Below, one piece after another: positions 12,951-27,499 of a DNA stretch of 64,000 nt. The translations under genes and the position numbers were made by a program. How positions within the stretch are numbered: position 1 is the stretch's first letter; each line of letters opens with the position of its first letter. The notes under the pieces are model-generated. The model was given only the letters and a program-made list of their open reading frames with translations. It was not told where the DNA came from and did no database searches. This DNA is from Jannaschia marina (lineage in GTDB: Bacteria > Pseudomonadota > Alphaproteobacteria > Rhodobacterales > Rhodobacteraceae): assembly GCF_013404595.1 (NCBI RefSeq), contig NZ_JABVAX010000002.1, positions 434,001 to 498,000 on the forward strand, read 5' to 3'.

Positions 12951-13037
12951 CTGTTTCTTCCTTGTTAAACCACGGCCCGCGTCGCACGGGCGATCGTTTC
13001 CGGTCTGACGCCCGATTGCGGCAATTCCATGGACCGG

Positions 13038-13053
13038 CATGGGTTATCCCATG
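13038..13053. promoter_or_regulatory. Palindrome upstream of cpaB, possible operator
   Basis: CATGGGTTATCCCATG is a 6-bp-arm inverted repeat located 88 bases before the cpaB start, flanked by further CCATGG elements. It may be a regulator site in the cpaB promoter, but no regulator is known to me. Confidence 0.3.
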
Positions 13054-13090
13054 GCTGTCCTAACGATGGGTTAAGCCGTGCTCGAAACGC

Positions 13091-13121
13091 AAAAAGCGCC
13101 CGGTCCGGGACCTGGGCGCTT
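13091..13121 (-). terminator. Rho-independent terminator after the flp pilin genes
   Basis: On the minus strand AAGCGCCC, an inner GGTCC/GGACC stem and GGGCGCTT are followed by TTTGCG. It lies about 20 bases after the last pilin gene and should close the pilin transcript before cpaB. Confidence 0.85.
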
Positions 13122-13142
13122 GAAGCGTGGATCGCTGTCGGA

Positions 13143-13406
13143 TCAGCGGTTGACGCCGGTCGCGGCGGTGCCCTCGGTGTAGGTCGAGCTGTTCGCGGTA
13201 AAGGTGGCGCTCGACGGGAAAGGACTCGCGACCGGATCCTGGTTGGCGAGAGTTTGGCCGACGTCGCCAGAGAGGTTCTGGATGCCGCCCGAGACGACCG
13301 ACATGACGGCGAGGCCGAGGCCTACGAGAGCGGCGGTCAGGACGACCCAGTCGACCGTCACGGCACCGGATTCGTCGTTGATGAAGGCGTTGATGGTGCG
13401 CAGCAT
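13143..13406 (-). CDS. flp: Flp-type pilin, copy 1 (most diverged)
   Basis: An 87-residue Flp family prepilin. The leader MLRTINAFINDESG is followed by a cleavage point G/AVTVD and a hydrophobic helix (WVVLTAALVGLGLAVMSVV). It is the major-pilin type substrate of CpaA. The canonical Glu5-Tyr6 after the cleavage site is Asp5-Trp6 here, as in the two neighbouring copies. The C-terminal tail (about 55-87) differs from the other two: it has VASPFPSSATFTANSS instead of GADVFNGNATFTANSS. It is third in a tandem of three on the same strand and is followed by a terminator. Confidence 0.9.
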   Translation of the reverse strand: MLRTINAFINDESGAVTVDWVVLTAALVGLGLAVMSVVSGGIQNLSGDVGQTLANQDPVASPFPSSATFTANSSTYTEGTAATGVNR

Positions 13407-13474
13407 GGGAGGAGTTCCTCGTTAAAGGTGGATCCGTCGGATCCAGGCTGACCTATTACGGTATCGGGATTGGC

Positions 13475-13501
13475 GGGCCCCCGCGCAGGACGCGGGGGCC
13501 C
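13475..13501 (-). terminator. GC-rich hairpin between flp copies 2 and 1
   Basis: A perfect 11-bp stem (gggcccccgcg and its complement) with a five-base loop lies about 25 bases after the stop of pilin copy 2. No T tract follows, so it may attenuate transcription or protect the 3' end of pilin mRNA, giving different dosage of the copies. Confidence 0.6.
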
Positions 13502-13526
13502 CGGATCAGATATCCGCGTTGCGGAC

Positions 13527-13796
13527 TTAGTTGTTGGAGCCGTGCGAGGGGGCGGTGCCGACCGTATAGGTCGAGCTGTTCGCGGTAAACGTCGCGTTGC
13601 CGTTGAAGACATCCGCACCCGGGGCCTGGTTGGCGAGGGTCTGGCCGATGTCGCCTGAAAGGTTCTGGATACCACCCGAGACGACCGACATGACGGCGAG
13701 GCCGAGGCCCACGAGGGCGGCGGTCAGGACCACCCAGTCGACCGTCACGGCACCGGATTCGTCGTTGATGAAGGCGTTGATGTTGTTGATGATCAT
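13527..13796 (-). CDS. flp: Flp-type pilin, copy 2
   Basis: An 89-residue Flp prepilin with leader MIINNINAFINDESG and cleavage before AVTVDW. The mature region differs from copy 3 at a single residue (GADVF versus GADAF) while the leaders differ more. The tail ends GTAPSHGSNN. Such near identity points to recent duplication or gene conversion. It probably supplies the bulk pilin together with copy 3. A GC-rich hairpin follows its stop, and AAGGAAGA lies ahead of the start. Confidence 0.92.
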   Translation of the reverse strand: MIINNINAFINDESGAVTVDWVVLTAALVGLGLAVMSVVSGGIQNLSGDIGQTLANQAPGADVFNGNATFTANSSTYTVGTAPSHGSNN

Positions 13797-13849
13797 GGTC
13801 TTCTTCCTTGAACTGGGCCGTTGACTGCGCGGCCGAAGGGTTTGCTCGA

Positions 13850-13867
13850 CCCGTGCCGGAGCACGGG
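13850..13867 (-). terminator. Short hairpin between flp copies 3 and 2
   Basis: A 7-bp perfect stem (cccgtgc/gcacggg) with a four-base loop lies about 24 bases after the stop of pilin copy 3. It lacks a T tract. It occupies the same relative place as the larger hairpin after copy 2. Confidence 0.45.
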
Positions 13868-13891
13868 CCGATTGATATGGGGAGCGCCGAC

Positions 13892-14158
13892 TTAGTTGTT
13901 GGAGCCGTGCGAGGGGGCGGTGCCGACCGTATAGGTCGAGCTGTTCGCAGTGAACGTCGCGTTGCCGTTGAAGGCGTCTGCACCCGGGGCCTGGTTGGCC
14001 AGCGTCTGGCCGATGTCGCCCGAGAGGTTCTGGATGCCGCCGGAAACGACCGACATGACGGCGAGGCCGAGGCCCACGAGCGCGGCGGTCAGGACAACCC
14101 AGTCGACCGTCACGGCACCGGATTCGTCGTTGATGAAGGTGTTGATGGAGTTCAGCAT
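13892..14158 (-). CDS. flp: Flp-type pilin, copy 3 (promoter-proximal)
   Basis: An 88-residue Flp prepilin beginning MLNSINTFINDESG at the ATG 14156-14158; a longer open frame upstream has no pilin features, so the short start is right. Cleavage is before AVTVDWVVLTAALVG, again with Asp5-Trp6. Mature residues are almost identical to copy 2. As the first of the three genes it probably carries the promoter, in the long upstream intergenic region. Confidence 0.92.
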   Translation of the reverse strand: MLNSINTFINDESGAVTVDWVVLTAALVGLGLAVMSVVSGGIQNLSGDIGQTLANQAPGADAFNGNATFTANSSTYTVGTAPSHGSNN

Positions 14159-14906
14159 TGGTTCAGTCCTTGGTAAGTTCACGTTCAGTTGTCTCGTCAG
14201 GCCGTCTCGCCCTTTCGATGAAGCCGTTCTGACGGGCAAACGGGGCGGGAATGAGACGCGTTGGGGACGAGTCAGGGGAAATACGCGGGTCAAAGAAAGG
14301 TGATTTTTCCCCAAGGCACTGATTTAAAACGCGATCCGGCGCGTGATCGGAAGATTTCGAGTCAAATGCCGAGGATCCGGCCCCATAGAGCGTGCCCTGA
14401 CCGACTCGCCTTTGATCGCCTCTGAACCCCGTCGCCTGAAAGAAGCGAGGGCCGCGCCTGCCAGCACGACCCTCTGTCCCTCGGAAGATCCGATGGAAGC
14501 TTGGTGACGTTTTCCTCTTGTCCGCTCCGCCTGCCAACGGAGGGTGGGGCTGCTCGATCGTCACGTTTCCTGCCCGAGTGTCCCGGTGCTTCTTTTTGAT
14601 CCGTCGTCCGGGCGGTCTGCCATCGCCCGTTCAGCGGATGAGACGGGTATGCGGGGCAATTGCGGCAAGATCGTGTCGCATTTGGTTCAAATTGCGGACA
14701 ATCCCGATTTCACAGGAAATTAACGCGTCTTTGGCAACACGAAGCCGGCCGGGCGAGGGCATCGCGACGGCGCAAGGGGGCCGAACAGGGGCCGACGCGT
14801 GGCATATGTCACAGCCGGGCCACTTCCGCGCGGGCCCGCCATGACAGGTGGAGGGCCATATGGCATCTTCGGGCAAAACCAGGCCGAAACGGCAGAGCAG
14901 TCAGAC
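14159..14906. other. Long divergent intergenic region between flp and the lytic transglycosylase gene
   Basis: About 750 bases without a credible gene. It must hold the promoter of the pilin genes (minus strand) and of the transglycosylase (plus strand). An AT-richer patch at about 14280-14340 is a candidate pilin promoter area. An AATTGCGG element occurs twice at 14658 and 14690, 32 bases apart, and could be a regulator site. No tRNA or known riboswitch was recognised. Confidence 0.5.
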
Positions 14907-15761
14907 ATGAAAGCCTTTCTCATCCCCGCGGTCGCCATCGCGCTCTCGCTCACGCTGCCGGTCGCACCGGCCAGCGCGGAGTTCACCTTCAAGCGCGTGC
15001 GCCCGCCCGCGAGCGGCACGGCGAGCCGGATCACCGTCCAGATCACGCCCGAGGATTTCGAGGAGCAGCAATCGCCGTCGCGCGCGCCGCGGCCCGCCGC
15101 TCCCGAGGCCCCGCAGCTCGCCAGCGCCCGTACCGCGCCGTCGGAGCCGCGCGGTGGGCGCAGCAACCATCAGGCCTGGTTCTGGTCCGCCGTCTCGCCC
15201 AGTATCGAGGCGACGCCGGGTCGTTTCACCAAGGCCGCGCAGGTCGCGGCCCGTCCGCCCGAGGGCAGTGGCGTGCGCGCGCCCTCGCTCGCTCAGCTCC
15301 AGGCCATCGCCAAGCTCCACGGCCCCGAGATCCTCGCGCGTTCCGTCGGTACGCGGGTCTCGCCCGCGCTGGTCCTCGCGCTCATCTCGGTCGAGTCGGG
15401 CGGGCGCGTCACCGCGGTGTCGAACAAGGGCGCGCAGGGGCTGATGCAGCTCATCCCCGCCACCGCAGAGCGGTTCGGCGTCTCCGACGCAAACGATCCG
15501 GCGCAGAACATCCAGGGCGGCATCGCCTATCTCGACTGGCTGATGGGCGAGTTCGGCAACGATCCCGTGCTGGCTCTCGCAGGCTACAACGCGGGCGAAG
15601 GGGCCGTGCGGCGCAACGGCGGCGTTCCGCCCTATGCCGAAACGCGGGCCTACGTGCCGAAGGTTCTCGCCGCCTGGAACGTCGCGCGCCAGATGTGCCT
15701 CACGCCGCCGGTGTTGCCGGGCGACGGCTGCGTCTTCAATCCGACCTTGACAGATTCCTGA
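14907..15761 (+). CDS. Secreted lytic transglycosylase
   Basis: A 284-residue exported peptidoglycan lytic transglycosylase, SLT/goose-lysozyme-like. The start at 14907 gives a clean signal peptide (MKAFLIPAVAIALSLTLPVA, cleavage near ASA-E). After a Pro/Ala-rich linker (about 55-125) the SLT domain (about 140-250) shows ALISVESGGRVTAVSNKGAQ with the catalytic Glu in the VESGG motif, GLMQLIPATAERFGV, and GYNAGEGAV, all family hallmarks. It lies alone on the plus strand opposite the pilin genes; such enzymes open the wall for envelope machines, so a link with pilus insertion is possible but not shown. Confidence 0.92.
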   Translation: MKAFLIPAVAIALSLTLPVAPASAEFTFKRVRPPASGTASRITVQITPEDFEEQQSPSRAPRPAAPEAPQLASARTAPSEPRGGRSNHQAWFWSAVSPSIEATPGRFTKAAQVAARPPEGSGVRAPSLAQLQAIAKLHGPEILARSVGTRVSPALVLALISVESGGRVTAVSNKGAQGLMQLIPATAERFGVSDANDPAQNIQGGIAYLDWLMGEFGNDPVLALAGYNAGEGAVRRNGGVPPYAETRAYVPKVLAAWNVARQMCLTPPVLPGDGCVFNPTLTDS

Positions 15762-15799
15762 TCCCGCCATTCCTCCGGCGCGAAACACGCCACGGGGAT

Positions 15800-15820
15800 C
15801 CGGGGGTGCGAAACCCCCGG
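15800..15820. terminator. Hairpin between convergent genes
   Basis: CCGGGGGT and ACCCCCGG form an 8-bp stem with a five-base loop in the 75-base gap between the transglycosylase (plus) and the GNAT gene (minus). It can serve both directions, but no clear T tract follows on either side. Confidence 0.5.
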
Positions 15821-15836
15821 CGGCGCAGGGCGTCGG

Positions 15837-16130
15837 TCAGGCGATGACGTCCGCCCACGCGGGGTGACGCCGCGCCTGGGCCTTCACGAAGGGGCAGAGG
15901 GCGACGACGCGCGTCCCCTCGGCCCGCATGTCCGCCACCATCCGCTCGGCGAGGGCCAGGCCCACGCCCCGTCCGCGGAAGGCGTCGGGCACGCCGGTGT
16001 GGTCCACGATGATCTGCGTCGCGCCGAGGCGGGAATAGGTCATCTCCGCCTCCACACCGCCCTCGCGGTAGATCCAGCGGCCCCCGCTCCCGCCGTCCTC
16101 GCGGGCGATCTCGCCCGGCAGGTCGCTCAT
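15837..16130 (-). CDS. Small GNAT-like N-acetyltransferase (YjdJ/COG2388 type)
   Basis: A 97-residue single-domain protein. The acetyl-CoA-binding signature is VPDAFRGRGVGLALAERMV (about 47-65), matching the RxxGxG/A motif of GNAT folds, and the C-terminal CPFVKAQARRHPAW is typical of the short GNAT subgroup. The substrate is not known. It starts seven bases after the scoB stop on the same strand and is probably in that operon. Confidence 0.85.
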   Translation of the reverse strand: MSDLPGEIAREDGGSGGRWIYREGGVEAEMTYSRLGATQIIVDHTGVPDAFRGRGVGLALAERMVADMRAEGTRVVALCPFVKAQARRHPAWADVIA

Positions 16131-16137
16131 GCGGTGC

Positions 16138-16767
16138 TCACGCGACCAGCGTGGCCTCGGTCAGATCCCGCAGCTCCGCCTCGCTCACGCCCTCGGCCAG
16201 TTCCACGATCCTCAGGCCGCCCTCGACCACGTCGAGCACGCCGAGGTTCGTGATGATCCGGTCGACCACGCCCTGACCCGTCAGCGGCAGCGTGCATTCC
16301 TTCAGAACCTTCGACTGCCCGTGCTTGTTGGCATGATCCATCACCACCACCACACGGCCCACGCCGGCCACCAGGTCCATCGCGCCGCCCATCCCCTTGA
16401 CCAGCTTGCCGGGGATCATCCAGTTCGCCAGGTCGCCGTTCTCGGCCACTTCCATCGCGCCCAGGATCGCCATGGCGATCTTGCCGCCGCGGATCATGCC
16501 GAAGCTCTGCGCGCTGTCGAAATAGGCGGTCTTCGGCAGCTCGGTGATCGTCTGCTTGCCCGCGTTGATGAGATCCGCGTCCTCTTCGCCCTCGATCGGG
16601 AAGGGGCCCATGCCGAGCATCCCGTTCTCGGATTGCAGCGTCACCTCGATGCCCTCGGGGATGTGGTTCGACACCAGCGTCGGGATCCCGATGCCGAGGT
16701 TCACGTACCAGCCGTCCTGCAGCTCTTGCGCGGCGCGCGCGGCCATCTGATTGCGGTCCCAGGGCAT
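16138..16767 (-). CDS. scoB: 3-oxoacid CoA-transferase subunit B
   Basis: A 209-residue beta subunit of succinyl-CoA:3-ketoacid (or acetate/acetoacetyl) CoA-transferase, which moves CoA onto acetoacetate for ketone-body or PHB breakdown. The start at 16767 ([16 protein letters not shown]) is the usual one. The catalytic Glu lies in [11 protein letters not shown] (about residue 51), and [11 protein letters not shown] and [10 protein letters not shown] are conserved. Unusually, the alpha subunit gene is not adjacent: a LOV-domain kinase-like gene lies between them on the same strand. Confidence 0.93.
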
Positions 16768-16830
16768 GTCTCGTCCTCGCTGTCTCAAATCTCGGCCCGA
16801 GTCCTGCGCCACTTTGCGCCGGACGTAAAG

Positions 16831-17937
16831 TCAGGCGTCGGCGATCCCCGCGGGCACGTCGAGCATCACCACGGTCCCGGCCGCGCCGCGCACCGGCGTG
16901 ATGGTCGCGTCGAGCCCGTCGGCCAGCGTGGAGATGAGCCGCCCGCCCATCGTGGCCAGGTCGGGGAAGGGCGCGTTCGGGAGCATTCCGACCCCGTCGT
17001 CGGTCACCACGAGGCGCAGCCCGCCGGCCGCGAGCCGCGTCACCCGAAGTTCGATCAACCCCTCCTCCAGACGGTCGAAGGCATGGTGGAAGGCGTTGAA
17101 GAGCAGTTCCGATAGCAGCAGAGACACCCGCACCGCCGCCTCGAGGTTGACCTCGGCCCCCTCGATCGACTGCTGGTAGCGGATGCCGGGCCGGCCCTCC
17201 TCGTGGGCGATACCCGCCGCGACCCGGCTGATGAGCGCCCCGAGGTCGATGCCGCCCCGGAGCGATCCCTGCGCCTCCGACAGCTGCATCGCCTCGTAGA
17301 CGAGCTGCAGGCATTCGAGCCGCCGCGACATCGCCTCGAAGGCCAGCGGCTCGCCGTCGGCGCTGCCTTCGCTGATGCTCTTGAGGACCATCGAAAGATC
17401 CTCCTGCACCCGCGAGCGGATCGCACCCAGAAGCGCGTTGACCGAGGCCTCCTCGCGTTCGCTTTCGTAGAGTTCCTTCTGGATGCCGAGGAAATACATC
17501 ACCTCGCCGTCGCCGTCGGTGATGGGCGCGATGATGAGCCGGTTGGTGAAGGGACGCCCGTCGGCGCGGTAGTTGCGGATGTCGACGCTGATGTCGCGCC
17601 CCGCCTCGATGGCGGCGCGGATGTCGTCGACGTCGGCCTTGCGCGTGTCCTCGCCCTGCAGGAAGCGGCAGTTGCGCCCGATCACCGCGGAACGGGCATA
17701 GCCCGTTGTCCGCTCGAAGGCGGAATTGACGTAGACGATCGGGTTGTCCTCGGCCCGTGGGTCGGTCAGCACCATCGCCACCTTTACGCGGCTGAAGCCC
17801 GCGATCGCATCCTCCTCGCCCATCACGGCCGCCAGCTTGCGCTTTACCCCCTCCGTGGGGCCGCGCACGGCGGGTCGCCCGGCATCCCCTGGCAGGGGGT
17901 TCGTTTCCGGCAGTTTGTCGTCGTGGTCGTTCGTCAT
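16831..17937 (-). CDS. LOV-domain photoreceptor, histidine-kinase-like protein
   Basis: A 368-residue soluble protein. The LOV domain spans about 47-155: the flavin-adduct motif GRNCRFLQGEDT has Cys90, and the FMN contacts N122, N132 and Q153 are in place (NYRADGRPFTNR, FLGIQ), so blue-light sensing is expected. The dimerisation helix (about 160-215) resembles HisKA_2, but where HRVKNNL is expected the sequence reads SRVQEDL (175-181), so the acceptor His is missing. The ATPase-like domain (270-365) keeps the N-box Asn281 (SELLFNAFHHAF), DDGVGM (313-318) and the G2 glycines. It sits between scoB and scoA in one direction. Output may be non-canonical or the protein may act on another kinase. 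Confidence 0.88.
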   Translation of the reverse strand: MTNDHDDKLPETNPLPGDAGRPAVRGPTEGVKRKLAAVMGEEDAIAGFSRVKVAMVLTDPRAEDNPIVYVNSAFERTTGYARSAVIGRNCRFLQGEDTRKADVDDIRAAIEAGRDISVDIRNYRADGRPFTNRLIIAPITDGDGEVMYFLGIQKELYESEREEASVNALLGAIRSRVQEDLSMVLKSISEGSADGEPLAFEAMSRRLECLQLVYEAMQLSEAQGSLRGGIDLGALISRVAAGIAHEEGRPGIRYQQSIEGAEVNLEAAVRVSLLLSELLFNAFHHAFDRLEEGLIELRVTRLAAGGLRLVVTDDGVGMLPNAPFPDLATMGGRLISTLADGLDATITPVRGAAGTVVMLDVPAGIADA

Positions 17938-18097
17938 GTCGCCCTCCCCGGACCGCGGGACATGCAGACTACTCGTCAGCGCGGCGCGGCCGGGCCGGTC
18001 CTCCGGGTCCCGATCCCGGTGCCGACGTCTCTGGCCTAGCGCGACCCGTCCCGGCGCGCGGCCGGACCGGGTTCAAGCGTGCGGTCGGGGGCGCATA

Positions 18098-18811
18098 TCA
18101 GGCGGCGCGCACCGTCCGCTGTTCGATCCGTTTCTCGTGCTCTCCCTGGATCAACCGATGAACATAGATCCCCGGCAGGTGAATGCCATCCGGATCGAGC
18201 GATCCGGTCGGCACGATCTCCTCCACTTCGGCCACGCAGACCTTGCCGCACATCGCCGCCGGCGGGTTGAAGTTGCGCGCGGTCTTGCGGAAGACGAGAT
18301 TGCCGGTCTCGTCCGCCTTCCAGGCCTTGACGATCGACAGGTCGGCGAAGATGCCCGCCTCCATGATGTAGGTCTCCTCCGCGCCGTCCGGGCCGGTGGG
18401 AAAATCCTTGTGTTCCTTGCCCTCGGCGATGACGGTGCCCACGCCCGTCTTGGTATAGAAGCCGGGGATGCCGCAGCCGCCGGCGCGCATCCGCTCCGCG
18501 AGCGTGCCCTGCGGGTTGAACTCCAGCTCCAGCTCGCCCGAGAGATACTGGCGCATGAACTCCGCGTTCTCGCCGACGTAGGAGGAGATCATCTTCCTCA
18601 CCTGCCGCGTCTGAAGCAGGATGCCGATACCGAAGTCGTCCACGCCGGCGTTATTCGACGCGAAGGTGAGATCCTTCGTCCCGGCCTCCTTGATCGCCTC
18701 GAGCAGCAATTCCGGGATCCCGCAGAGGCCGAAGCCGCCGGCCGCGATGAGCATTCCGTCCTGCAGGAGACCGTCGAGCGCCTCGGCCGCCGATCCGTAA
18801 ACCTTCTTCAT
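18098..18811 (-). CDS. scoA: 3-oxoacid CoA-transferase subunit A
   Basis: A 237-residue alpha subunit, partner of ScoB at 16138-16767. The start is the ATG at 18811 (MKKVYGSAAEALDGLL); the frame stays open upstream only as a shadow of the membrane protein gene. The CoA-binding motif AAGGFGLCGIPE (about 23-34) and GAEETYIMEAGIFADLSIVK are characteristic. The two subunits normally form one tight operon; here about 1.3 kb with the LOV kinase gene separates them, and about 160 bases lie between the scoA stop and the LOV gene start. Confidence 0.93.
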   Translation of the reverse strand: MKKVYGSAAEALDGLLQDGMLIAAGGFGLCGIPELLLEAIKEAGTKDLTFASNNAGVDDFGIGILLQTRQVRKMISSYVGENAEFMRQYLSGELELEFNPQGTLAERMRAGGCGIPGFYTKTGVGTVIAEGKEHKDFPTGPDGAEETYIMEAGIFADLSIVKAWKADETGNLVFRKTARNFNPPAAMCGKVCVAEVEEIVPTGSLDPDGIHLPGIYVHRLIQGEHEKRIEQRTVRAA

Positions 18812-18867
18812 GCAATCCCCCGGATGTCGCTGTGTCGCGGGAAGGCTACGCGGAACCCGACGGGCTT

Positions 18868-19842
18868 TCAATCTCCGTTTCGCTCCAAGGGTTTGGACTG
18901 ACGGCGCTCCGCCGGTTGCCGGTGGATCAGACCGTGCAGCATGGCCCGTCCCCAAAGCCACAGCGCTGTGGGGCCGAGCGTGAAGATGGCAAGCGCGTTG
19001 ATTTCCAGCGGGATGCGGGCCTGCGTGAAGACGGCGAAGCCCGCGACCGCCAGCAGCGGAAGGGCCGAGGTCAGAAGGATGCGCCGCCCCGGCACCGCTT
19101 CCATCCGCCGCGGCGCGCCGGCCGGCGTGCCCCGCAGCGCCAGCAGACTCGCGCCGACGAGACAGGGCAGCACCAGCGCGGCCGGAAAGGCCGCGACCGC
19201 CCAGGTCGTCGCCCAGAGCAGCGTTGCAAGGCCGAGGAGAATGGCGAGATCGACGCGCAGGTCGAGCGCCGCAACCCGCCCTGCAAGGCGGTCCCAGCCC
19301 CGGTGTCCCGCCGCGAAGAGAACCCAGCCGACGGCGCATTGCACCGCGAAGGGAGCGACTGTGGCCCAGTCGAACGCCATCGCGCCCGTCTCCGTCTCGC
19401 GCACCGACCACATCCAGCCGTTCCAGAGACCGAACCCGAGCCCGAATGCGGCCGAGAGCAGCAGCGTCGCGCCGGCTCCCCGCGCCATGGCCCACCGGAG
19501 TGCGCCGAGGCAGAGACCGACCGTGACCAGCATGTGCCAGGCCAGCGGCGTCCAGAGGATCGAGATCGGGAGCGCGGTATAGAGCTCCCCGACGACGAGG
19601 CCCTCGGCCAGCAATCCGAAGATGCCCGCGCCGATCCACCAGCCGCCCGCGTCCCGGCGACCCGTCACCGACAGGAGCGCCACCATCGTCCAGCCGAGCA
19701 GCCCGTAGAGCACGACCGCCATCGCGAAATCGGGTCCGAGGTGGACGGGGTAGAACCAGACCTCCGACGGCACCACGAGGACCGCGCCGAGCGAGAGGAT
19801 CGCCGCGGCGCGGGTCAGAAGGGCGGGGGCGATCCGGTCCAT
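18868..19842 (-). CDS. Polytopic membrane protein of unknown function
   Basis: A 324-residue inner-membrane protein with about nine or ten hydrophobic segments rich in Trp (for example FGLWNGWMWSV near 145). I recognise no family. It ends with a short basic tail (RRQSKPLERNGD). The ATG at 19842 lies just downstream of a pair of 23-bp direct repeats that look like operators, so the gene is probably under specific control. It is upstream of scoA by about 55 bases on the same strand and could be co-transcribed with scoA and the LOV kinase. A sensor, transporter or lipid-related role is all speculation. Confidence 0.8.
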   Translation of the reverse strand: MDRIAPALLTRAAAILSLGAVLVVPSEVWFYPVHLGPDFAMAVVLYGLLGWTMVALLSVTGRRDAGGWWIGAGIFGLLAEGLVVGELYTALPISILWTPLAWHMLVTVGLCLGALRWAMARGAGATLLLSAAFGLGFGLWNGWMWSVRETETGAMAFDWATVAPFAVQCAVGWVLFAAGHRGWDRLAGRVAALDLRVDLAILLGLATLLWATTWAVAAFPAALVLPCLVGASLLALRGTPAGAPRRMEAVPGRRILLTSALPLLAVAGFAVFTQARIPLEINALAIFTLGPTALWLWGRAMLHGLIHRQPAERRQSKPLERNGD

Positions 19843-19863
19843 CGCCGGAGCCTAGCGTCGCCC

Positions 19864-19919
19864 GCGGGTCTGTACAAAACGTTCAATCGCGCCCTGCGGG
19901 TTTGTACAAAACGTCCAAA
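19864..19919 (-). promoter_or_regulatory. Paired direct repeats with TTTGTACAAA core, probable operator
   Basis: Two copies of a 23-base element (19864-19886 and 19896-19918) differ at two positions and are offset by 32 bases, about three helical turns. Each contains TGTACAAAACGT; the second copy has the perfect palindrome TTTGTACAAA. They sit 22 to 76 bases before the start of the polytopic membrane protein gene. The arrangement fits two regulator dimers on one face of the helix. The regulator is unknown. Confidence 0.7.
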
Positions 19920-19939
19920 TCCGCCGCTCCGCCCCCGGA

Positions 19940-21235
19940 TCAGAGGTCGGGATAGATCGGGAAGCGGTCGCAGAGATCCTTCACCTTCGTGCGCACCGCG
20001 GCCTCCACCTCGGAATTGCCCTCGGCCCCGTTTTCCGCAAGCCCGTCAACGACTTCCACGATCAGATCCGCGATCGCGCGGAACTCCGGCTCGGCGAACC
20101 CCCGCGTCGTGCCCGCCGGCGTGCCCAGGCGTATCCCACTGGTGATGGTGGGTTTTTCGTCGTCGAAGGGAATGCCGTTCTTGTTGCAGGTGATATGCGC
20201 GCGCCCCAGGGCGTCCTCGGTCGCATTGCCCTTCACACCCTTGGGACGCAGATCCACGAGCATCAGATGCGTGTCCGTCCCACCGGTCACGATATCGAGC
20301 CCGCCCTTAATCAGCTGGTCGGCAAGGGCTTTCGCATTTTCAATGACTTGCGCTTGATAATCCTTGAAGCCGGGCCGCAGCGCCTCGCCGAAGGCCACGG
20401 CCTTCGCGGCGATCACATGCATCAGAGGCCCGCCCTGAATGCCGGGGAAGATCGCCGAGTTGACCTTCTTCGCGATCGCTTCGTCATCGGTCAGGATCAT
20501 CCCGCCCCGCGGCCCGCGCAACGTCTTGTGCGTAGTCGTCGTGGCGACATGGGCGTGCGGGAAGGGCGACGGGTAGTGGCCCGAGGCCACGAGGCCGGCG
20601 AAATGTGCCATGTCCACAAGGAGATAGGCACCAACACTGTCCGCGATCTCGCGCATCCTGGCGAAGTCGATGACCCGAGGGATCGCCGAGCCGCCGGCGA
20701 TGATCATCTTCGGCTGATGCTCGGTCGCCAGCTCCTGCACGGCGTCGTAGTCGAGCGTCAGGTCCTGCTTGCGCACGCCGTATTGGATCGCGTTGAACCA
20801 CTTCCCCGACTGGTTCGGCCGGGCACCATGGGTCAGGTGGCCGCCTGCGTCGAGCGACATGCCGAGGATCGTGTCGCCGGGCTGCAGGAGTGCGGTAAAG
20901 ACGCCCTGGTTGGCCTGGGAGCCGGAGTTCGGCTGCACGTTGGCAAAGCCGCAGCCGAACAGCTGCTTCGCGCGGTCGATGGCGAGGTTTTCCGCGATAT
21001 CAACATATTGACAGCCGCCGTAGTAGCGCCGGCCCGGGTAGCCCTCGGCATATTTGTTGGTCATCACGCCGCCCTGCGCCTCCATGACGGCGCGGCTGAC
21101 GATGTTTTCCGAGGCGATGAGTTCGATCTCGTCGCGCTGCCGGCCGAGCTCGAGCCGGGTGGCCTCGGCGATCTCGGGGTCGGTGTCGCCGAGCGTGGCG
21201 GAGAAGAAGTTCGGGTCGCGGTGGGGGGCGTTCAT
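19940..21235 (-). CDS. glyA: Serine hydroxymethyltransferase
   Basis: A 431-residue PLP enzyme that interconverts serine and glycine with transfer of a one-carbon unit to tetrahydrofolate. The ATG at 21235 ([15 protein letters not shown]) has GGAG nine bases upstream; an in-frame GTG three codons earlier lies on top of that site and is less likely. The PLP lysine is in [15 protein letters not shown] (about residue 240), and [10 protein letters not shown] at the N-terminus and [13 protein letters not shown] are conserved. It is divergent from nadK with about 150 bases between. Confidence 0.97.
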
Positions 21236-21383
21236 GGCTGGCACTCCGATCTGGGATCCGTCGCGGCCTCATACGCCGATGGAGCCCGGTTTGAAAGCGA
21301 CCAAAACGGCGCAGCGTCGTGCAGGCGCGACCTTGTGTTTCCGATCGGCGCGCGCCAACCCTGTTCCAAACCCCGGGGAGCCC

Positions 21384-22151
21384 ATGCCGCGCGCCAGACC
21401 CATCGCCTTCGTCGCCTCCGACACGCCCGAGGCCCGCGACGCGCTCGCGCGGCTGACCGAGCGGTATGGGCAGACGCCCGTCGAGGCGGCGGAGGTGATC
21501 GTCGCGCTCGGAGGCGATGGCTTCATGCTCGAGACGCTGCACGCGACCATGGCGATCGACGCGCCGGTCTACGGGATGAACCGGGGCACCGTCGGCTTCC
21601 TGATGAACGACTATCGCGAGACCGGTCTGACGGCGCGGCTCGCCAGGGCCGAGGAGGCGGTGACGAACCCCCTGCGGATGGCGGCGACGCGCGCCAACGG
21701 CGAGGTGGTCGAGGCGCTCGCCATCAACGAGGTCTCGCTCCTGCGCGCCGGACCGCAAGCCGCGCGCCTGCGCATCTCGGTCGACGACAAGGTGCGGATG
21801 GAGGAGCTCGTCTGCGACGGCGCGCTCCTGGCCACGCCCGCCGGGTCGACCGCCTACAACTACTCGGCGCACGGGCCCATTCTGCCGATCGGCTCCGGCG
21901 TCCTTGCCTTGACCGCGATGTCCGCCTTCCGGCCACGGCGCTGGCGCGGGGCGATCCTGCCTAGGGCGGCGCGCGTGCGCTTCGACGTGCTGCACCCCGA
22001 GAAGCGGCCGATGATGGCGGAGGCCGACGGCAACTCGGTGCGCGACGTGGTCGCCGTCGAGATCGAGAGCGACGCGAGCATCGCGCACCGACTGCTCTTC
22101 GATCCGGGCCACGGGCTCGAGGAGCGGCTGCTGCGCGAGCAGTTCACCTGA
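21384..22151 (+). CDS. nadK: NAD kinase
   Basis: A 255-residue kinase that makes NADP from NAD and ATP. The start [12 protein letters not shown] at 21384 follows CGGGGAGCCC. The catalytic GGDGFML (about residues 45-51), the NE motif INEVSLLR and the glycine-rich [18 protein letters not shown] (about 156-173) are all present. It is compact, like other alphaproteobacterial NAD kinases. It is followed by metG with about 120 bases between. Confidence 0.95.
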
Positions 22152-22274
22152 GGCGACGGACGGGGGGCGCTGCCCCTCGCGCTCCCCGGAGTATTTGCGG
22201 CAGGAAGATGGGGCCAGCGCGGCTTGCGGGGGCGGGGGCGGGGGCCTAGAACGCGTCGACCTCTGGAGACACCC

Positions 22275-23984
22275 ATGCCCCGCACGCTCATCACTTCGGC
22301 CATTCCCTACATCAACGGGATCAAGCACCTCGGGAACCTCGTCGGCAGCCAGCTGCCGGCGGATCTCTATGCGCGCTACTGCCGGGCGCGGGGCCATGAG
22401 GTGATGTTCATCTGCGCGACCGACGAGCATGGGACGCCGGCGGAACTGGCGGCGGCGAAGGCGGGCAAGCCGGTGGCGGAGTATTGCGCCGAGATGTGGC
22501 AGGTGCAGAAGGATCTCGCCGACGGCTTCCGTTTGTCGTTCGATCATTTCGGCCGCTCCTCCTCGCCGCAGAACCATCGGCTGACGCAGCATTTCGCGGG
22601 CAGGCTGGACGCGGCGGGGCTCATCGACGAGCGCACCTCCGAGCAGGTCTACTCGGTTGCCGACGGACGCTTCCTGCCGGACCGCTACATCGAGGGCACC
22701 TGCCCGAATTGCGGCTTCGAGGACGCGCGGGGCGATCAATGCGACAACTGCGGCAAGCTCCTCGACCCGACCGATCTCATCGAGCCGCGCTCGACCGTCT
22801 CGGGCGCGACCGACCTCGAAGTGCGTGAGACGAAGCACCTCTTCCTGCGGCAGTCGCAACTGAAGGACCGGCTTGACCAGTGGATCGACAGCCAGGAGGG
22901 CTGGCCCGTCCTGACGACGTCGATCGCCAAGAAGTGGCTGCACGACGGCGACGGGCTGCAGGACCGGGGCATCACTCGCGACCTCGACTGGGGCATTCCG
23001 GTGAGGAAGGGCGACGCGCCGTGGCCCGGGATGGAGGGCAAGGTCTTCTACGTCTGGTTCGACGCGCCCATCGAGTACATCGCCGGCACGGCCGAATGGG
23101 CCGATGCGACGGGCGGCGACTGGGAGCGCTGGTGGCGCACCGACAAGGGCGCGGACGACGTGCGCTACGTGCAGTTTATGGGCAAGGACAACGTGCCCTT
23201 CCATACGCTGAGCTTTCCGGCGACGCTCCTCGGGTCGGGCGAGCCCTGGAAGACGGTCGACTACCTGAAGTCGCTCAACTATCTGAACTACGACGGTGGC
23301 CAGTTTTCCACCTCGCGCGGGCGGGGCGTCTTCATGGACCAGGCGCTCGACGTGCTGCCGTCGGATTACTGGCGCTGGTGGCTTCTGAGCCGGGCCCCAG
23401 AGAGCAGCGATACGGAGTTCACCTGGGAGGCCTTCCAGACCGACGTGAACAAGGATCTGGCCGATGTGCTGGGCAATTTCGTGAGCCGTGTGACGAAGTT
23501 CTGCCGCTCGAAGTTCGGCGAGACCGTGCCCGAGGGCGGGACGCCGGGTGCGCCGGAGGCGGCGCTGATCGCGCGGCTCTCCGAGGGGCTTGCGACTTAC
23601 GAGCGCCACATGGACGCGATCGAGATCCGCAAGGCGGCGGGTGCGCTTCGGGCGCTCTGGGTCGCGGGGAACGAATACCTGCAGGACGCGGCCCCCTGGT
23701 CGACCTTCAAGACGGAGCCGGAGCACGCGGCGATGCAGATCCGCCTCGCGCTGAACCTCATCCGGCTCTATGCGGTGCTCTCCCGACCGTTCATCCCCGA
23801 TGCGGCGGCCGCGATGCTGCGCGCCATGGGCACGGAGGATGACGGCTGGCCCGACGACGTGAGCGCGGCTCTGGCTGTCCTCGCCCCCGGTCACGCCTTC
23901 GAGGTGCCAGAGGTGCTCTTTTCTAAGATCACCGACGCGCAGCGCGAGGAATGGGCGACGCGCTTCGCCGGAAAGCGGGAGTGA
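22275..23984 (+). CDS. metG: Methionyl-tRNA synthetase
   Basis: A 569-residue class I aminoacyl-tRNA synthetase. The HIGH-type motif is INGIKHLGN (about residues 14-22), so the second His of HxGH is Asn, as in many MetRS. A zinc knuckle [19 protein letters not shown] (about 145-163) is intact with four cysteines. The KMSKS loop reads QFSTSRG (about 343-349), replacing the usual lysines; variants of this loop occur in the MetG group without the C-terminal tRNA-binding domain, which is also missing here. The N-terminal start at 22275 is the one that places SAIPYING at the normal position. Confidence 0.95.
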
Positions 23985-24047
23985 TGGCCAAGCGCCGAAT
24001 CTAGGTTTTCATTTCGAATCCGATGCTTACGCGTCGATCGTATCCCC

Positions 24048-24076
24048 CTTGAAAGGGATGCGATGACTTCCCACGT
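24048..24076 (+). promoter_or_regulatory. RpoH-type heat-shock promoter of hsp20
   Basis: CTTGAAA at 24048-24054 matches the sigma-32 -35 consensus exactly, and CCCACGT at 24070-24076 approximates the CCCCATnT -10, with 15 bases between. Transcription would start about 24084, giving an approximately 95-base leader before hsp20. Confidence 0.75.
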
Positions 24077-24084
24077 CTAGTGTG

Positions 24085-24178
24085 TCGGACGCCGCAGTCG
24101 GGTTCGACGGGAAGATGGCCCCGGTCCGGCGTCGGACGGGGCGACAGCAAAATCGTATCGCTTTGAAAAGGATGCACC
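24085..24178 (+). promoter_or_regulatory. ROSE-like RNA thermometer in the hsp20 leader
   Basis: The last hairpin (24155-24175) pairs GUAUC and CUU with AAG and GAUGC, with one bulged G and a UGAA loop, and so covers the ribosome site AAGGA (24168-24172). The 5' strand contains UCGCU, matching the UYGCU signature of ROSE thermometers with the bulged G opposite the Shine-Dalgarno. An upstream stem (GGACGCCG with CGGCGTC, about 24087-24135) precedes it, as in multi-hairpin ROSE leaders. Folding was judged by eye. Confidence 0.75.
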
Positions 24179-24640
24179 ATGCGTACCTATGATTTCACCC
24201 CGCTCTACCGCGCCACCGTCGGCTTCGACCGGATGGCCAACCTTCTCGACCGCGCGATGGCCGCCGATACGGCGACTGGCTATCCGCCCTACAACATCGA
24301 GAAGCTGGGCGAGAACGACTATCGCATCTCCATCGCCGTCGCCGGCTTCACCGAGGCCGAACTGTCGATCGAGGCGCGTGAGAACCAGCTTGTCGTGACC
24401 GCGCGCAAGGCCGAGAGCGACGAGACCCCGACCTACCTGCATCGCGGTATCGCGACCCGCGCCTTCGAGAAGTCGTTCCAGCTGGCCGACCATGTCCATG
24501 TGACCGGCGCGACCCATGCGGACGGCATGCTGCACATCGAATTGCAGCGGCAGGTTCCCGAGGCGCTCAAGCCCCGTCGCATCGAGATCGCGACGGCGCG
24601 TCCGGCGCTGACGGGAACTCCGGATGCCGTCGAGGCCTGA
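24179..24640 (+). CDS. ibpA: Small heat-shock protein, Hsp20/IbpA family
   Basis: A 153-residue ATP-independent holdase chaperone that keeps unfolding proteins soluble during heat stress. The alpha-crystallin domain spans about 35-135: YNIEKLGENDYRISIAVAGF and the C-terminal GMLHIELQRQVPE are typical of the IbpA class; the usual IxI tail element appears as RRIEIATA. The ATG at 24179 follows AAGGA, which sits inside the predicted thermometer hairpin. Regulation is therefore expected at two levels, RpoH transcription and heat-melting of the leader. A terminator follows. Confidence 0.95.
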   Translation: MRTYDFTPLYRATVGFDRMANLLDRAMAADTATGYPPYNIEKLGENDYRISIAVAGFTEAELSIEARENQLVVTARKAESDETPTYLHRGIATRAFEKSFQLADHVHVTGATHADGMLHIELQRQVPEALKPRRIEIATARPALTGTPDAVEA

Positions 24641-24670
24641 CCCGAGACCGGGCTTCCGGTGACGGAGCGG

Positions 24671-24703
24671 CGCGCGCCCGACACGGGGCGCGCGTTTCGC
24701 TTG
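24671..24703 (+). terminator. Rho-independent terminator after hsp20
   Basis: CGCGCGCCC and GGGCGCGCG form a 9-bp stem with a six-base loop, followed by TTTCGCTT, about 30 bases after the hsp20 stop. Confidence 0.75.
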
Positions 24704-24738
24704 CCTGACCGAAGTGCGCGGTGCCATACGCTCGACCC

Positions 24739-25185
24739 ATGACCGAACCCGCGCCCTCCGCGAGACGGATTTCCGAACGCCTCCTGTCGGCGACGGGGGA
24801 CGCTATGCTGCGCGGCGATTTCGACGAGTTCGCCGCCTATTTCGCATTGCCGCAGCGGATCGGCACCTTCGACGGCAGCCGGGTCCTGACCACTCGGACG
24901 GAGCTGCGCGACACCTTCGAGGCGGTGCGCGCGCACTACAAGCGCCTCAACGTGACGGACATGGCGCGGCACTGCGCCGATGCGATCTTCGTCGACGACA
25001 GGACCATCCAGTCGACCCACGTCAGTCGCCTGCTCAGCGGGCCGCTCCTGGTGCAGGAGGCCTACCCGGTGCTTTCCATCCTCAGGAAGACGGACGCCGG
25101 ATGGCGTATCGTGTCGAGCCAGTATGCCGCGCCCGGCAAAGCCGGTCTGAACGCCGTGCTGCTCGGCGCGCGCGTCGGGGTCTGA
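24739..25185 (+). CDS. NTF2/SnoaL-fold protein of unknown function
   Basis: A 148-residue protein of the NTF2-like fold (SnoaL or DUF4440 type), inferred from length, the helical start (ISERLLSATGDAMLRGDFDEFAAYFALP), and the beta-rich remainder ending with TDAGWRIVSSQYAAPG, a pattern common in that fold. I chose the ATG at 24739; a GTG six codons upstream is also in frame. These proteins may be small-molecule isomerases, cyclases or binding proteins; no catalytic set is evident. It converges with the gene at 25193, with seven bases between stops. Confidence 0.7.
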   Translation: MTEPAPSARRISERLLSATGDAMLRGDFDEFAAYFALPQRIGTFDGSRVLTTRTELRDTFEAVRAHYKRLNVTDMARHCADAIFVDDRTIQSTHVSRLLSGPLLVQEAYPVLSILRKTDAGWRIVSSQYAAPGKAGLNAVLLGARVGV

Positions 25186-25192
25186 TCGCGGC

Positions 25193-26053
25193 CTAGAACC
25201 ACTGCCCCGGCTCCATCAGCCCGAGGTCCATCAACTGCTGCGCGCGCCATTCGAAGGGGATCGAGCCGTCCCAGTGGAGGCTGTCGATCGCCGCGCGCGA
25301 GCCGGGGTTCGTGGCAAGCGCCTTGGCCGCCCGGAAGGACGCGATGGCCGCAGTCATGGAATGGTGCCAGGGGCAGGCGTAGGTGTTCATCTCCTCGATC
25401 GAGAGACGGTGATCGGGCAGGAGCCGCAAGTCTCTGCGCACGCGGAAGAGAGCCACGCGGTCGATGCGCCGCCGTTCCCAGGGGATGTGCTCCTCGAAGC
25501 GCCAGCGCAGGCCGCCGAAGAAGTCGAGCTGCCGCTCGGCCGGGCCATCCGTGCCCCAGCGGGCGAGCGCGAAGTAGCCGGCCTCGTCCATCCAGGCATC
25601 ATTGGTGTCGACGGCGTTGCAGCCCTTAGCGAGCGTGCGGGCATAGAGGTCGACCACGAAGGTCAGCACGGCGTCGCGGCGCTCCTCGGTGCAGAAGTGC
25701 AGCGCCTCGCCGATGCGGCGGCTTTCGGCGAAGGGATGGTAGAGGTATTCGGCGTTGTAGACGTAGCCGGTCCAGGCTCCGGCGGGGCGCCCGTCGATCA
25801 GGGCGTTGACACAGGTCGAGGCGAGGTCGTCGGGCCGCCGGTCGAGGCTCAGGCGATGCACGCCCTCGGGCAGATCTGAGGGCAGCGCGATGCCGGGCGC
25901 GACCGCGAGAACGATCTGGCCGAAACCCGCGTCGCGATGGTGCGCGATCGTGCTTTCGATCTCGGTTCCGTCCTCGCAGAGGATCATCAGCGCCGGCCCC
26001 TTGCCGAGGGTGCCGGCCCTGGCGCGAAGATCCTCCAGGGATGAGAAGTCCAT
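25193..26053 (-). CDS. Conserved glycosyltransferase-like protein
   Basis: A 286-residue cytoplasmic protein starting MDFSSLEDLRARAG at the ATG 26053; the frame remains open far upstream but only as a shadow of miaB. The first part (20-75) looks like a Rossmann-like half of a GT2-type fold (ALMILCEDGTEIESTIAHHR, then FGQIVLAVAPG), and the middle part has the invariant-looking AEYLYHPFAESRRIGEALHF and GCNAVDTNDAWMDEAGYFAL, which I associate with Rhodobacterales proteins labelled glycosyltransferase family 2. No donor-site DXD is clear. Function uncertain. Confidence 0.65.
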   Translation of the reverse strand: MDFSSLEDLRARAGTLGKGPALMILCEDGTEIESTIAHHRDAGFGQIVLAVAPGIALPSDLPEGVHRLSLDRRPDDLASTCVNALIDGRPAGAWTGYVYNAEYLYHPFAESRRIGEALHFCTEERRDAVLTFVVDLYARTLAKGCNAVDTNDAWMDEAGYFALARWGTDGPAERQLDFFGGLRWRFEEHIPWERRRIDRVALFRVRRDLRLLPDHRLSIEEMNTYACPWHHSMTAAIASFRAAKALATNPGSRAAIDSLHWDGSIPFEWRAQQLMDLGLMEPGQWF

Positions 26054-26176
26054 CGGGTGCCTGCCTGCCGTTTGGCGGCACTGTCCCGCAAAGTCGCGCG
26101 CCCCGCAACCGGCGGCGCGTTGCGGCGGCGGCGGGCCTGCGGTATTGCCGCCACGCATTGAGACCGGGGATCCGTC

Positions 26177-27499
26177 ATGCCTGCGCCGAAGAAGCTGCAT
26201 ATAAAGACCTATGGCTGTCAGATGAATGTCTACGACAGCGAGCGCATGGCCGAGGCCATGGGCGGGCAGGGGTACGAGATGACGGACTGTCCGGAAGAGG
26301 CGGACATGATCCTCCTCAATACTTGCCACATCCGGGAGAAGGCGGCCGAGAAGGTCTATTCCGACCTGGGCCGTCTGAAGCCCCTGCGGGAGGCGAAGCC
26401 GGATCTCAAGATCGGGGTCGCGGGCTGCGTGGCGCAGGCCGAGGGCGCGGAGATCATGGCGCGGCAACCCATGGTCGACCTCGTGGTCGGGCCGCAGACC
26501 TATCACCGCCTGCCGGCGATGATGGAGCGGGTGGAGGCCGGTGAGAAGGCGCTCGACACCGACATGCCGGAAGAGGACAAGTTCGATCACCTGCCGAAAC
26601 TGCGGACGCCCACGGCCCGGCCGACGGCCTTCCTGACGGTGCAAGAGGGGTGCGACAAGTTCTGCGCCTTCTGCGTAGTGCCCTATACCCGCGGTGCGGA
26701 GGTGAGCCGGCCGGTCGAGCGGCTCTTGCGCGAGGCGCGCGATCTGGTGGCCCGTGGCGTCAAGGAGATCACGCTGCTCGGGCAGAACGTGAACGGCTAC
26801 CACGGGGAGGGGCCCGACGGGCGCACCTGGTCGCTTGCCGATCTGATCTGGGCGCTCGACGGGATCGAGGGGCTGGAGCGGATCCGCTTCACCACCTCGC
26901 ATCCGAACGACATGACCGACGACCTGATCGAGGCCCACGGCACCTGCGCGAAGCTCATGCCCTACCTGCACCTGCCGGTCCAATCCGGGAGCGACCGCAT
27001 CCTGAAGGCGATGAACCGCAAGCACACCGCCGAGGACTACGTCGCGATCATCGACCGGCTGCGCGCCCTGCGCCCGGATTTGGCTCTGTCGGGCGATTTC
27101 ATCGTCGGCTTCCCGGGCGAGATGGAGGAGGATTTCGAGGCGACCATGGCGCTCGTGCGGCGTGTCGGCTACGCCGCCGCCTATTCCTTCCGCTACTCCG
27201 CGCGGCCCGGCACGCCCGCCGCCGAGAAGCCCGATGTGCCGATGGACGTCGCCGTCGAGCGGCTGCACCGGCTTCAGGCGCTCATCACCGATCAGCAGCG
27301 GGCCGCGCAGGACGCGATGGTGGGGCGCGAGACGACCGTCCTATTCGAGAAGGCGGGGCGCAAGCCGGGCCAGCTCGTCGGCAAGTCGGAGCATCTGCAG
27401 GCCGTCCATGCGGAGGCACCCGAGGCGCTTCTGGGCGAGGTTGCACGCGTGCGAATCGTCGCGGCGAAGACGAATTCGCTCGAAGCGGTGTTGATCTGA
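26177..27499 (+). CDS. miaB: tRNA-2-methylthio-N6-dimethylallyladenosine synthase MiaB
   Basis: A 440-residue radical-SAM methylthiotransferase that adds a methylthio group to i6A37 of tRNAs reading UNN codons. The N-terminal UPF0004 domain carries three cluster cysteines ([22 protein letters not shown]). The radical-SAM core has CDKFCAFC (about 158-165), and a TRAM domain lies at the end (about 375-440). It starts the classical miaB-phoH-ybeY-corC-lnt order, here interrupted by three small secreted-protein genes. The ATG at 26177 is preceded by a weak GGGG site. Confidence 0.96.

Follow-up and report, generated by a model that had tools for sequence, protein, structure and literature searches.

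A dispersed, orientation-bearing tandem DNA element at GC-skew steps in Jannaschia marina and relatives

Dispersed short binding sites such as those of the matS/MatP, SlmA and Noc systems occur in tens of copies per chromosome and define no regulon. REP and BIME sequences are intergenic, common at convergent junctions, lineage-specific in sequence and patchy in distribution. Chi and KOPS are polar DNA signals tied to recombination or translocation and to skew; they are short, follow the replichores and occur in much greater numbers than the element described here. In Rhodobacterales, local extremes of GC skew with raised GC have been published (Koppenhofer et al. 2022, PMC9836097). The parts of that paper on which we draw judge deamination not to be the cause of the skew peaks, or only partly so, describe the peaks as a feature of core and GTA genes, and ascribe them to preferential use of G-rich codons, the cause of that preference being left open. 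Discrete over-represented regions have also been described in the GTA content of Dinoroseobacter shibae, an alphaproteobacterium with an RcGTA-like GTA; they are read as packaging initiation sites, and the relevant part of the review treats the cause of the packaging peaks as unsettled (PMC11841831).

The locus studied here lies in a 64,000-nucleotide stretch of the Jannaschia marina genome, referred to below as the window. A sequence-only reading of the window had described a 23-bp direct repeat before an unknown membrane protein and had taken it for an operator built around a palindrome. The repeat is indeed there (21 of 23 positions equal, start-to-start spacing of 32 bp), and it is best described as a 32-nt unit that occurs twice and is 81% identical overall, with the cores TCTGTACAAA and TTTGTACAAA. 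With up to three mismatches, TTTGTACAAAACGT is matched 3 times in the window where 0.40 matches are expected, a number reached by none of 100 shuffles. A palindrome is present in the window copy, but its left half is loose across copies and the conserved part is asymmetric, so it is not the conserved unit. The element is placed between the 3' end of glyA and the start of the membrane protein gene, whose 324-aa product has no Pfam, NCBIfam or PHROGs family match.

Several other features of the neighbourhood were observed. Among the 20 genomes of the genus seen, the membrane-protein gene lies behind glyA only in Jannaschia marina, and in 10 of the 19 others a gene whose product starts with about M(T/A)TGFF.DE.C.WH.GGNYA (one start read from sequence) is found there. 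Tandem pairs or triples of inverted repeats, hairpins by eye, occur 3' of glyA in sister species (L129, L130, L133, L137, L139), and similar tandem hairpins, again by eye, lie behind genes in another genome of the set (G002, about 504.6 kb). A LOV-type histidine kinase gene (16831-17937) is located between two genes named by eye as CoA-transferase subunits (window 16138-18811), which are adjacent to each other in G001. Three near-identical short genes named by eye as pilin-like (INxFINDESGAVTVDWVVLTAALVGLG) occupy window positions 13143-14158 and adjoin a cluster that by eye is Tad-like.

A genome-wide search, which the same reading had suggested, recovered a large set of copies. With up to two mismatches, GTNTGTACAAAACGT has 53 matches in the whole genome compared with 2 for the reversed control; 16 same-strand pairs account for 32 of the 53, the spacing being 32 bp in 15 pairs and 31 bp in one. 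The element consists of two asymmetric units, GTACAAAACGTTCAAA, placed 31-32 bp apart; 16-20 bp of each unit are conserved, and the linker is variable and G/C-rich. For alignment we used 25 pairs, from 24 of the 30 stretches around matches and from the window, and excluded six stretches without a clear pair or with weak single matches. The spacing is 32 bp in 23 of the aligned pairs and 31 bp in 2. A sequence-only model of the element (R1) returned 31 rows in the same genome at E of at most 1e-3, two of which are halves of one site, giving 30 places. The double site is sequence-specific and helically phased, as had been held, and its copies are genome-wide. The element is chromosomal, dispersed and orientation-bearing, and the window pair is one of its copies. 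In genomes of two other genera, G024 and G074, the units are mostly GTACAAAACGGTCAA(A/T). Their linkers, profiled from 50 and 40 zero-mismatch matches respectively (in which the core is perfect by selection), mostly have G/C positions first, then a pyrimidine-rich and then a purine-rich stretch. G024 also has a few three-unit arrays.

The sites coincide with steps in GC skew. Skew was calculated from third-position GC, corrected for gene strand, read on the motif strand and taken within 7.5 kb. At 22 of the about 30 sites in the Jannaschia marina genome (20 stretches, one with a second site, and the window), the step is positive in 21 (Wilcoxon p=1.4e-6); the 5' side has a mean of -0.117 and is negative in 22 of 22, and the 3' side has a mean of -0.003. 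In this test the gene-strand baseline was set as a constant, 0.137; the baselines for G024 and G074, for the 488-kb contig C22 and for the sister species G015 were derived from the data. Unlike at the typical site, the step at the window site comes mostly from a positive 3' side, and the 5' tail is weak. For G024 and G074, the step is positive at 33 of 44 usable sites (p=9.7e-6; 47 loci, with L200-L203, which are located within a coding frame or at the start of rpsT, left out) and at all 16 of the longer loci (5-12 kb). On C22 the mean step is 0.135 at 8 of the 9 sites, the ninth being at the contig edge, compared with -0.014 (sd 0.062, 42% positive) at 327 other junctions and -0.013 at 50 convergent junctions. 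The asymmetric side mostly follows the orientation of the motif on this contig, where that orientation flips repeatedly, and the idea that orientation is set by the replichore was dropped for this genome because it flips along one contig.

The asymmetry is one-sided, usually on the 5' side of the motif, and fades with distance. Directly beside the site the 5' skew at 4-fold sites is -0.167; it has weakened to -0.023 at a distance of 20-30 kb and to -0.009 at 30-40 kb, with some positions on C22 counted for more than one site. The skew of the tail, 0.17-0.20, compares with -0.05 to 0.07 on the other side, and the tail side has the higher GC at 4-fold sites (0.938 vs 0.908, 0.966 vs 0.957 and 0.909 vs 0.869). 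The TA skew is -0.08+-0.03 in the nearest 5 kb in the Jannaschia marina genome, the wrong sign for deamination, and about 0 in the others. Nor are genes co-oriented with the tail, the fractions next to the site being 0.54, 0.37 and 0.40. The lack of a TA skew, the raised GC at 4-fold sites and the orientation of the genes argue against plain replication or deamination asymmetry, and deamination was rejected as the cause of the skew because no matching TA shift exists. A gene preference for G is insufficient alone, since the shift has opposite signs in genes on the two strands. A Chi-like word was also considered and rejected as a cause: k-mer polarity is general and no word stands out (in counts uncorrected for gene strand).

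Most sister species lack the motif, and several of them carry an unrelated tandem repeat, GGGTGATCCAC (/TGC), with an 11-bp period and 2-3 copies. It was first noticed by eye at two steps in G015, a complete genome of the same genus in which the motif is absent and local skew domains are present. Counting triple arrays twice, GGGTGATCCAC was matched in 10 of 20 genus genomes: 44 times in G015, 39 in G011, 27 in G001, 22 in G006, 17 in G004, 9 in G017, and 1-3 times in four more. Jannaschia marina and G014 have none, and the controls gave 0. Family-wide, 28 of 198 have 1-2 matches; as every one of them contains a mismatch (one each), these resemble background. Of the 24 G015 arrays, 23 were tested; the step is positive in 21 of them (p=2.4e-6), and the side ahead of the arrow is positive in all 23. 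Among the arrays fetched after the idea arose the step is positive in 18 of 20. The arrays are mostly on the minus strand at 1.3-1.6 Mb, mostly on the plus strand at 1.8-2.8 Mb and mixed before. An isolated exact repeat of unrelated sequence, CACGCCGGGCCGCCCCGC, with a 32-bp spacing and a third, diverged copy, was seen elsewhere in this genome (G015:C1 610368).

Table 1. Locations of the tandem element, its neighbours and the related features
Feature	Location	Strand	Remarks
Unit 1 of tandem element	19861..19892	+	core GTACAAAACGT at 19872-19882; genome match G000:C22:453868
Unit 2 of tandem element	19893..19924	+	core GTACAAAACGT at 19904-19914; genome match G000:C22:453900
Whole element as modelled by R1	19866..19923	+	second-best R1 match in genome, 58.4 bits, E 1.8e-15; itself among the 25 sequences used to build R1
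glyA (serine hydroxymethyltransferase)	19940..21235	-	stop codon 16 bp from modelled element
324-aa membrane protein gene	18868..19842	-	start 23 bp from modelled element; a neighbour, its role as a target only putative
Skew step at window site	12395..27395		+-7.5 kb; 5' side -0.018, 3' side +0.102, step 0.121
GGGTGATCCAC arrays	G015, L262-L305; 24 along chromosome, e.g. 622.7 and 773.7 kb	mixed	
Shared skew steps at orthologous junctions	G015 711.6, 767.1, 796 kb; G002 476, 505, 555.6 kb		no recognised element there
Element 2.7 kb 5' of GTA-like large terminase domain match	G024:C20 20861-24036		GTA by eye
Element 1.8 kb 5' of GTA-like large terminase domain match	G074:C55 129691-131981		GTA by eye

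The reading that we prefer, tentatively and at a probability of just under 0.4, is that the element is bound by a lineage-specific protein and serves as the polar start of a DNA transaction along its 5' side that fades over about 20-30 kb. The two phased asymmetric units suggest a bound protein, the change of sequence between lineages suggests that its specificity changes, and the one-sided, fading compositional tail points to a polar process that leaves from the site. A lineage-specific DNA-binding protein would sit on the two units, and the occupied element would act as the start point. The transaction would most likely be the start of homologous recombination or of DNA transfer, with the same strand always invading or transferred; this is the weakest step. 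Strand-biased, GC-favouring gene conversion could then produce GC skew and higher GC without a TA skew. It is known that C:C mismatches are poorly repaired, and a GC-only skew with raised GC would fit recombination with a fixed invading strand better than it would replication or deamination. Against this polar-start reading count the weak 5' tail at the window site, the 11 of 44 sites in G024 and G074 that are without a positive step, and the codon-preference account in the parts of PMC9836097 used here. A search for the factor among proteins flanking the Jannaschia marina sites and part of those in G024 and G074 returned orthologous neighbours and common ABC, SDR and similar families and no candidate; the genes in a 1.1-kb gap next to a triple array were, by eye, rnpA/rpmH/yidD-like and included no new factor.

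The best-placed alternative, although we hold it to be unlikely, is a chromosome-architecture site of the matS, SlmA or Noc kind, with domain boundaries every 60-70 kb and the skew step as a secondary mark. In three genomes, each from a different genus, the spacing of the sites is more regular than expected by chance. The null placed positions at random within the span from first to last site on each contig; against it, hand-made lists gave gap CVs of 0.47 in Jannaschia marina (null 0.81, p=0.0012), 0.61 in G024 (p=0.0046) and 0.49 in G074 (p 0/5000). Lists defined by rule (R1 at E of at most 1e-3; the pattern with at most one mismatch) gave 0.475 (null 0.80, p=0.0035), 0.660 (p=0.0026) and 0.483 (p=0.0001), with mean gaps of 59-70 kb over 19, 43 and 29 gaps, respectively. 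This even spacing favours architecture, as do the tens of copies per genome, the intergenic location beside neighbours without a shared function, and the skew boundaries in sisters that lack the element. Architecture alone does not explain the one-sided, strand-polar tail and the raised GC, and the spacing of the second element in G015 is not significantly more regular than random (p=0.16), a result that counts against the polar-start reading as well.

The distribution of the element across genomes is patchy, and this bears on a further alternative. Among 60 relatives, R1 has matches in three (31 in Jannaschia marina, 3 in G014, 45 in G024), and it has 0 in all 24 genomes of other families. 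The pattern GTACRAAA-N23..25-GTACRAAA has at least one match in 13 of 198 genera; seven of these have at least five (G024 65, G074 45, Jannaschia marina 25, G151 12, G194 7, G122 6, G203 5) and the remaining six have 1-2 each, whereas the reversed control has 0 in all 13 carriers and 3 matches in two other genera. Within the genus the pattern is found in 2 of 20 genomes (Jannaschia marina 25, G014 4; controls 2, in two others), and in a sample of the order that contains only this family it is found in 7 of 121, among them G295 with 22 and G305 with 15. The 22 matches in G295 have a different layout, with a G-run: at 21 places dispersed over a long contig (G295:C2) a third layout was seen, GTACAAAAC followed by TTTTGTACAAAACGTACAAAA with a run of G (or C) between them. 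The prevailing unit sequence changes from one heavy carrier to the next. A position behind an ABC-F-like ATPase gene is common to Jannaschia marina, G024 and G074, and one before gpmI is common to G024 and G074, with a single unit in Jannaschia marina (gene names by eye); as a few positions are common to different genera, the element is old in part. Viral contigs gave 2 matches, with spacings of 31 and 33 bp and in other sequence contexts, and a viral origin or phage-borne element was rejected on these grounds.

Skew steps can exist without the element. Six sites of Jannaschia marina have an orthologous junction that is readable in G015 and/or G002, the latter a genome with skew domains in which our search found no motif class. 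At three of them (L038, L046, L047) a step of the same polarity is present in both G015 and G002, neither of which has such an element there; one of these orthologous junctions is 6.6 kb from a GGGTGATC array. The element is therefore not necessary for a step. At the window locus and at L054 the step is present in Jannaschia marina and in neither of the two sister species, both of which are without the element there. L034, for which only G015 could be read, gives a mixed picture and lies near a GGGTGATC array. Overall, the elements mark steps: the two coincide at some loci, and steps can exist alone. The elements may have been placed at pre-existing boundaries.

A REP-like or non-autonomous repeat, copied to or retained at existing intergenic skew boundaries without causing them, would account for such placement, and we consider this quite unlikely. 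It fits the patchiness (13 of 198 genera, 2 of 20 genus genomes), the intergenic location, the absence of the element at the orthologous junctions read and the step without an element at 3 of 6 testable loci. However, linkers vary while cores are conserved, which resembles selection for binding more than recent copying, the prevailing unit sequence differs per heavy carrier, and the window and L054 steps are found only where the element is present. The window copy also lacks the hairpin of a REP-type repeat, its folding being not clearly more stable than that of shuffled sequence (z 0.14 and -1.60). Boundaries that species have in common at some loci need explaining even if the element does no more than mark older ones.

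We regard as improbable that the sites are extra unidirectional replication starts, with iteron-like initiator units and forks running towards the 5' side. The step has the sign of an origin in either orientation, the units are tandem, phased direct repeats, and the skew is strongest at the site and then decays, all of which speaks for such starts; a matching TA skew is lacking, genes do not run along the tail, the skew of the tail exceeds that of the other side, and by eye no A+T-rich stretch lies beside the sites.

Gene context was assessed with genes called by our own codon-usage script. Among 27 Jannaschia marina sites (four single or weak matches excluded), 26 are intergenic: 11 are at convergent, 13 at same-direction and 2 at divergent junctions, and one is inside a reading frame. 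Many lie directly against a stop codon. Of the genes flanking the 26 intergenic sites, 18 on the upstream side and 17 on the downstream side have their ends facing the site, giving no preferred side. The 51 sites of G024 and G074 comprise 14 convergent, 25 same-direction and 8 divergent ones and 4 within genes. The neighbours are unrelated (glyA and, by eye, serC/serA, purK/trmB, def/def, trxA, infA and priA). The window site has no promoter or terminator match and no significant RNA structure, and an intrinsic terminator or 3'-UTR RNA element was rejected, as the window copy has no stable hairpin or terminator, the sites have no fixed gene orientation and no Rfam family covers the element in the 17 stretches that were searched. 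Within 300 bp behind glyA, no such pair was found in the 19 other genus genomes, where two weak 15/20 repeats of other sequence occur. The context, the unrelated neighbours and the lack of RNA structure, terminator and promoter point to a DNA element rather than an operator. The operator pair of a transcription regulator proposed by the sequence-only reading is very improbable, given that, despite the phased double site and its position 23 bp before a gene start in the window, 11 of 27 sites are convergent and only 2 divergent, their neighbours are unrelated, no promoter was matched and the expected conservation upstream of orthologues did not appear, neither of the two relatives found for the membrane protein having a GTACRAAA word in its locus.

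To return to the polar-start reading, a generalized form of it, which we find rather doubtful, would hold that Rhodobacteraceae have fast-replaced, lineage-specific polar sites about every 60-70 kb that start recombination or DNA transfer. A protein with changing specificity would set the tandem sites, and a strand-polar process would then shape composition over tens of kb. The PRDM9 hotspots of mammals are fast-evolving, and the logic of the proposed rapidly replaced initiation sites would be comparable. If true, polar initiation would explain the published GC-skew peaks of Rhodobacterales, and bacteria would own chromosome-wide directional start sites with an evolving specificity, of which we know of no description.

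The discrete peaks of unsettled cause in D. shibae GTA content, as given in the part of PMC11841831 used here, led us to consider starts of GTA packaging. A terminase-family match is present in 9 of 9 genomes examined. Only 2 of the 9 (G011 and G014, which represent both motif classes) yielded a TerS-like ORF, which has by eye no obvious DNA-binding domain; in this sample GTA TerS does not obviously track the motif class.

In a literature search by sequence, TTTGTACAAAACG was not found, six longer forms were matched only in three papers, with titles on gout arthritis, wheat and a nematode, and six further forms of both elements had no match. The 1,276 papers that match TTTGTACAAA include, among those listed, no title on this group; the Gateway attB site contains this word. 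As far as this search extends, the element is novel, and its polar function is putative. The sites point to an unrecognised DNA process in these bacteria. A searchable DNA element at skew steps, with an unrelated replacement in sisters, offers a handle on the questions of the skew peaks and of GTA packaging.

Compared with known systems, the element resembles matS, SlmA and Noc sites in that its copies are dispersed over the chromosome and define no regulon, but it is built of tandem asymmetric units at a fixed spacing, has a polar tail and is replaced in sequence between sisters. With REP and BIME sequences it has in common the intergenic location, convergent junctions, lineage-specific sequence and patchiness; it differs in the lack of a clear hairpin, the varying linkers, the even spacing and the asymmetric core. 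In contrast to Chi and KOPS, the double sites here are long, number in the tens and change orientation along a contig. The signature of an iteron-type origin is not found, the skew being of GC only and the genes not co-oriented. The D. shibae GTA peaks are discrete regions like the sites here, but no motif is known for them from the part of the review used (PMC11841831). For the skew peaks of Rhodobacterales no sequence element is reported in the parts of PMC9836097 on which we draw, whereas here two unrelated tandem elements lie at steps, and these steps, in genomes other than those of that study, are probably the edges of such peaks.
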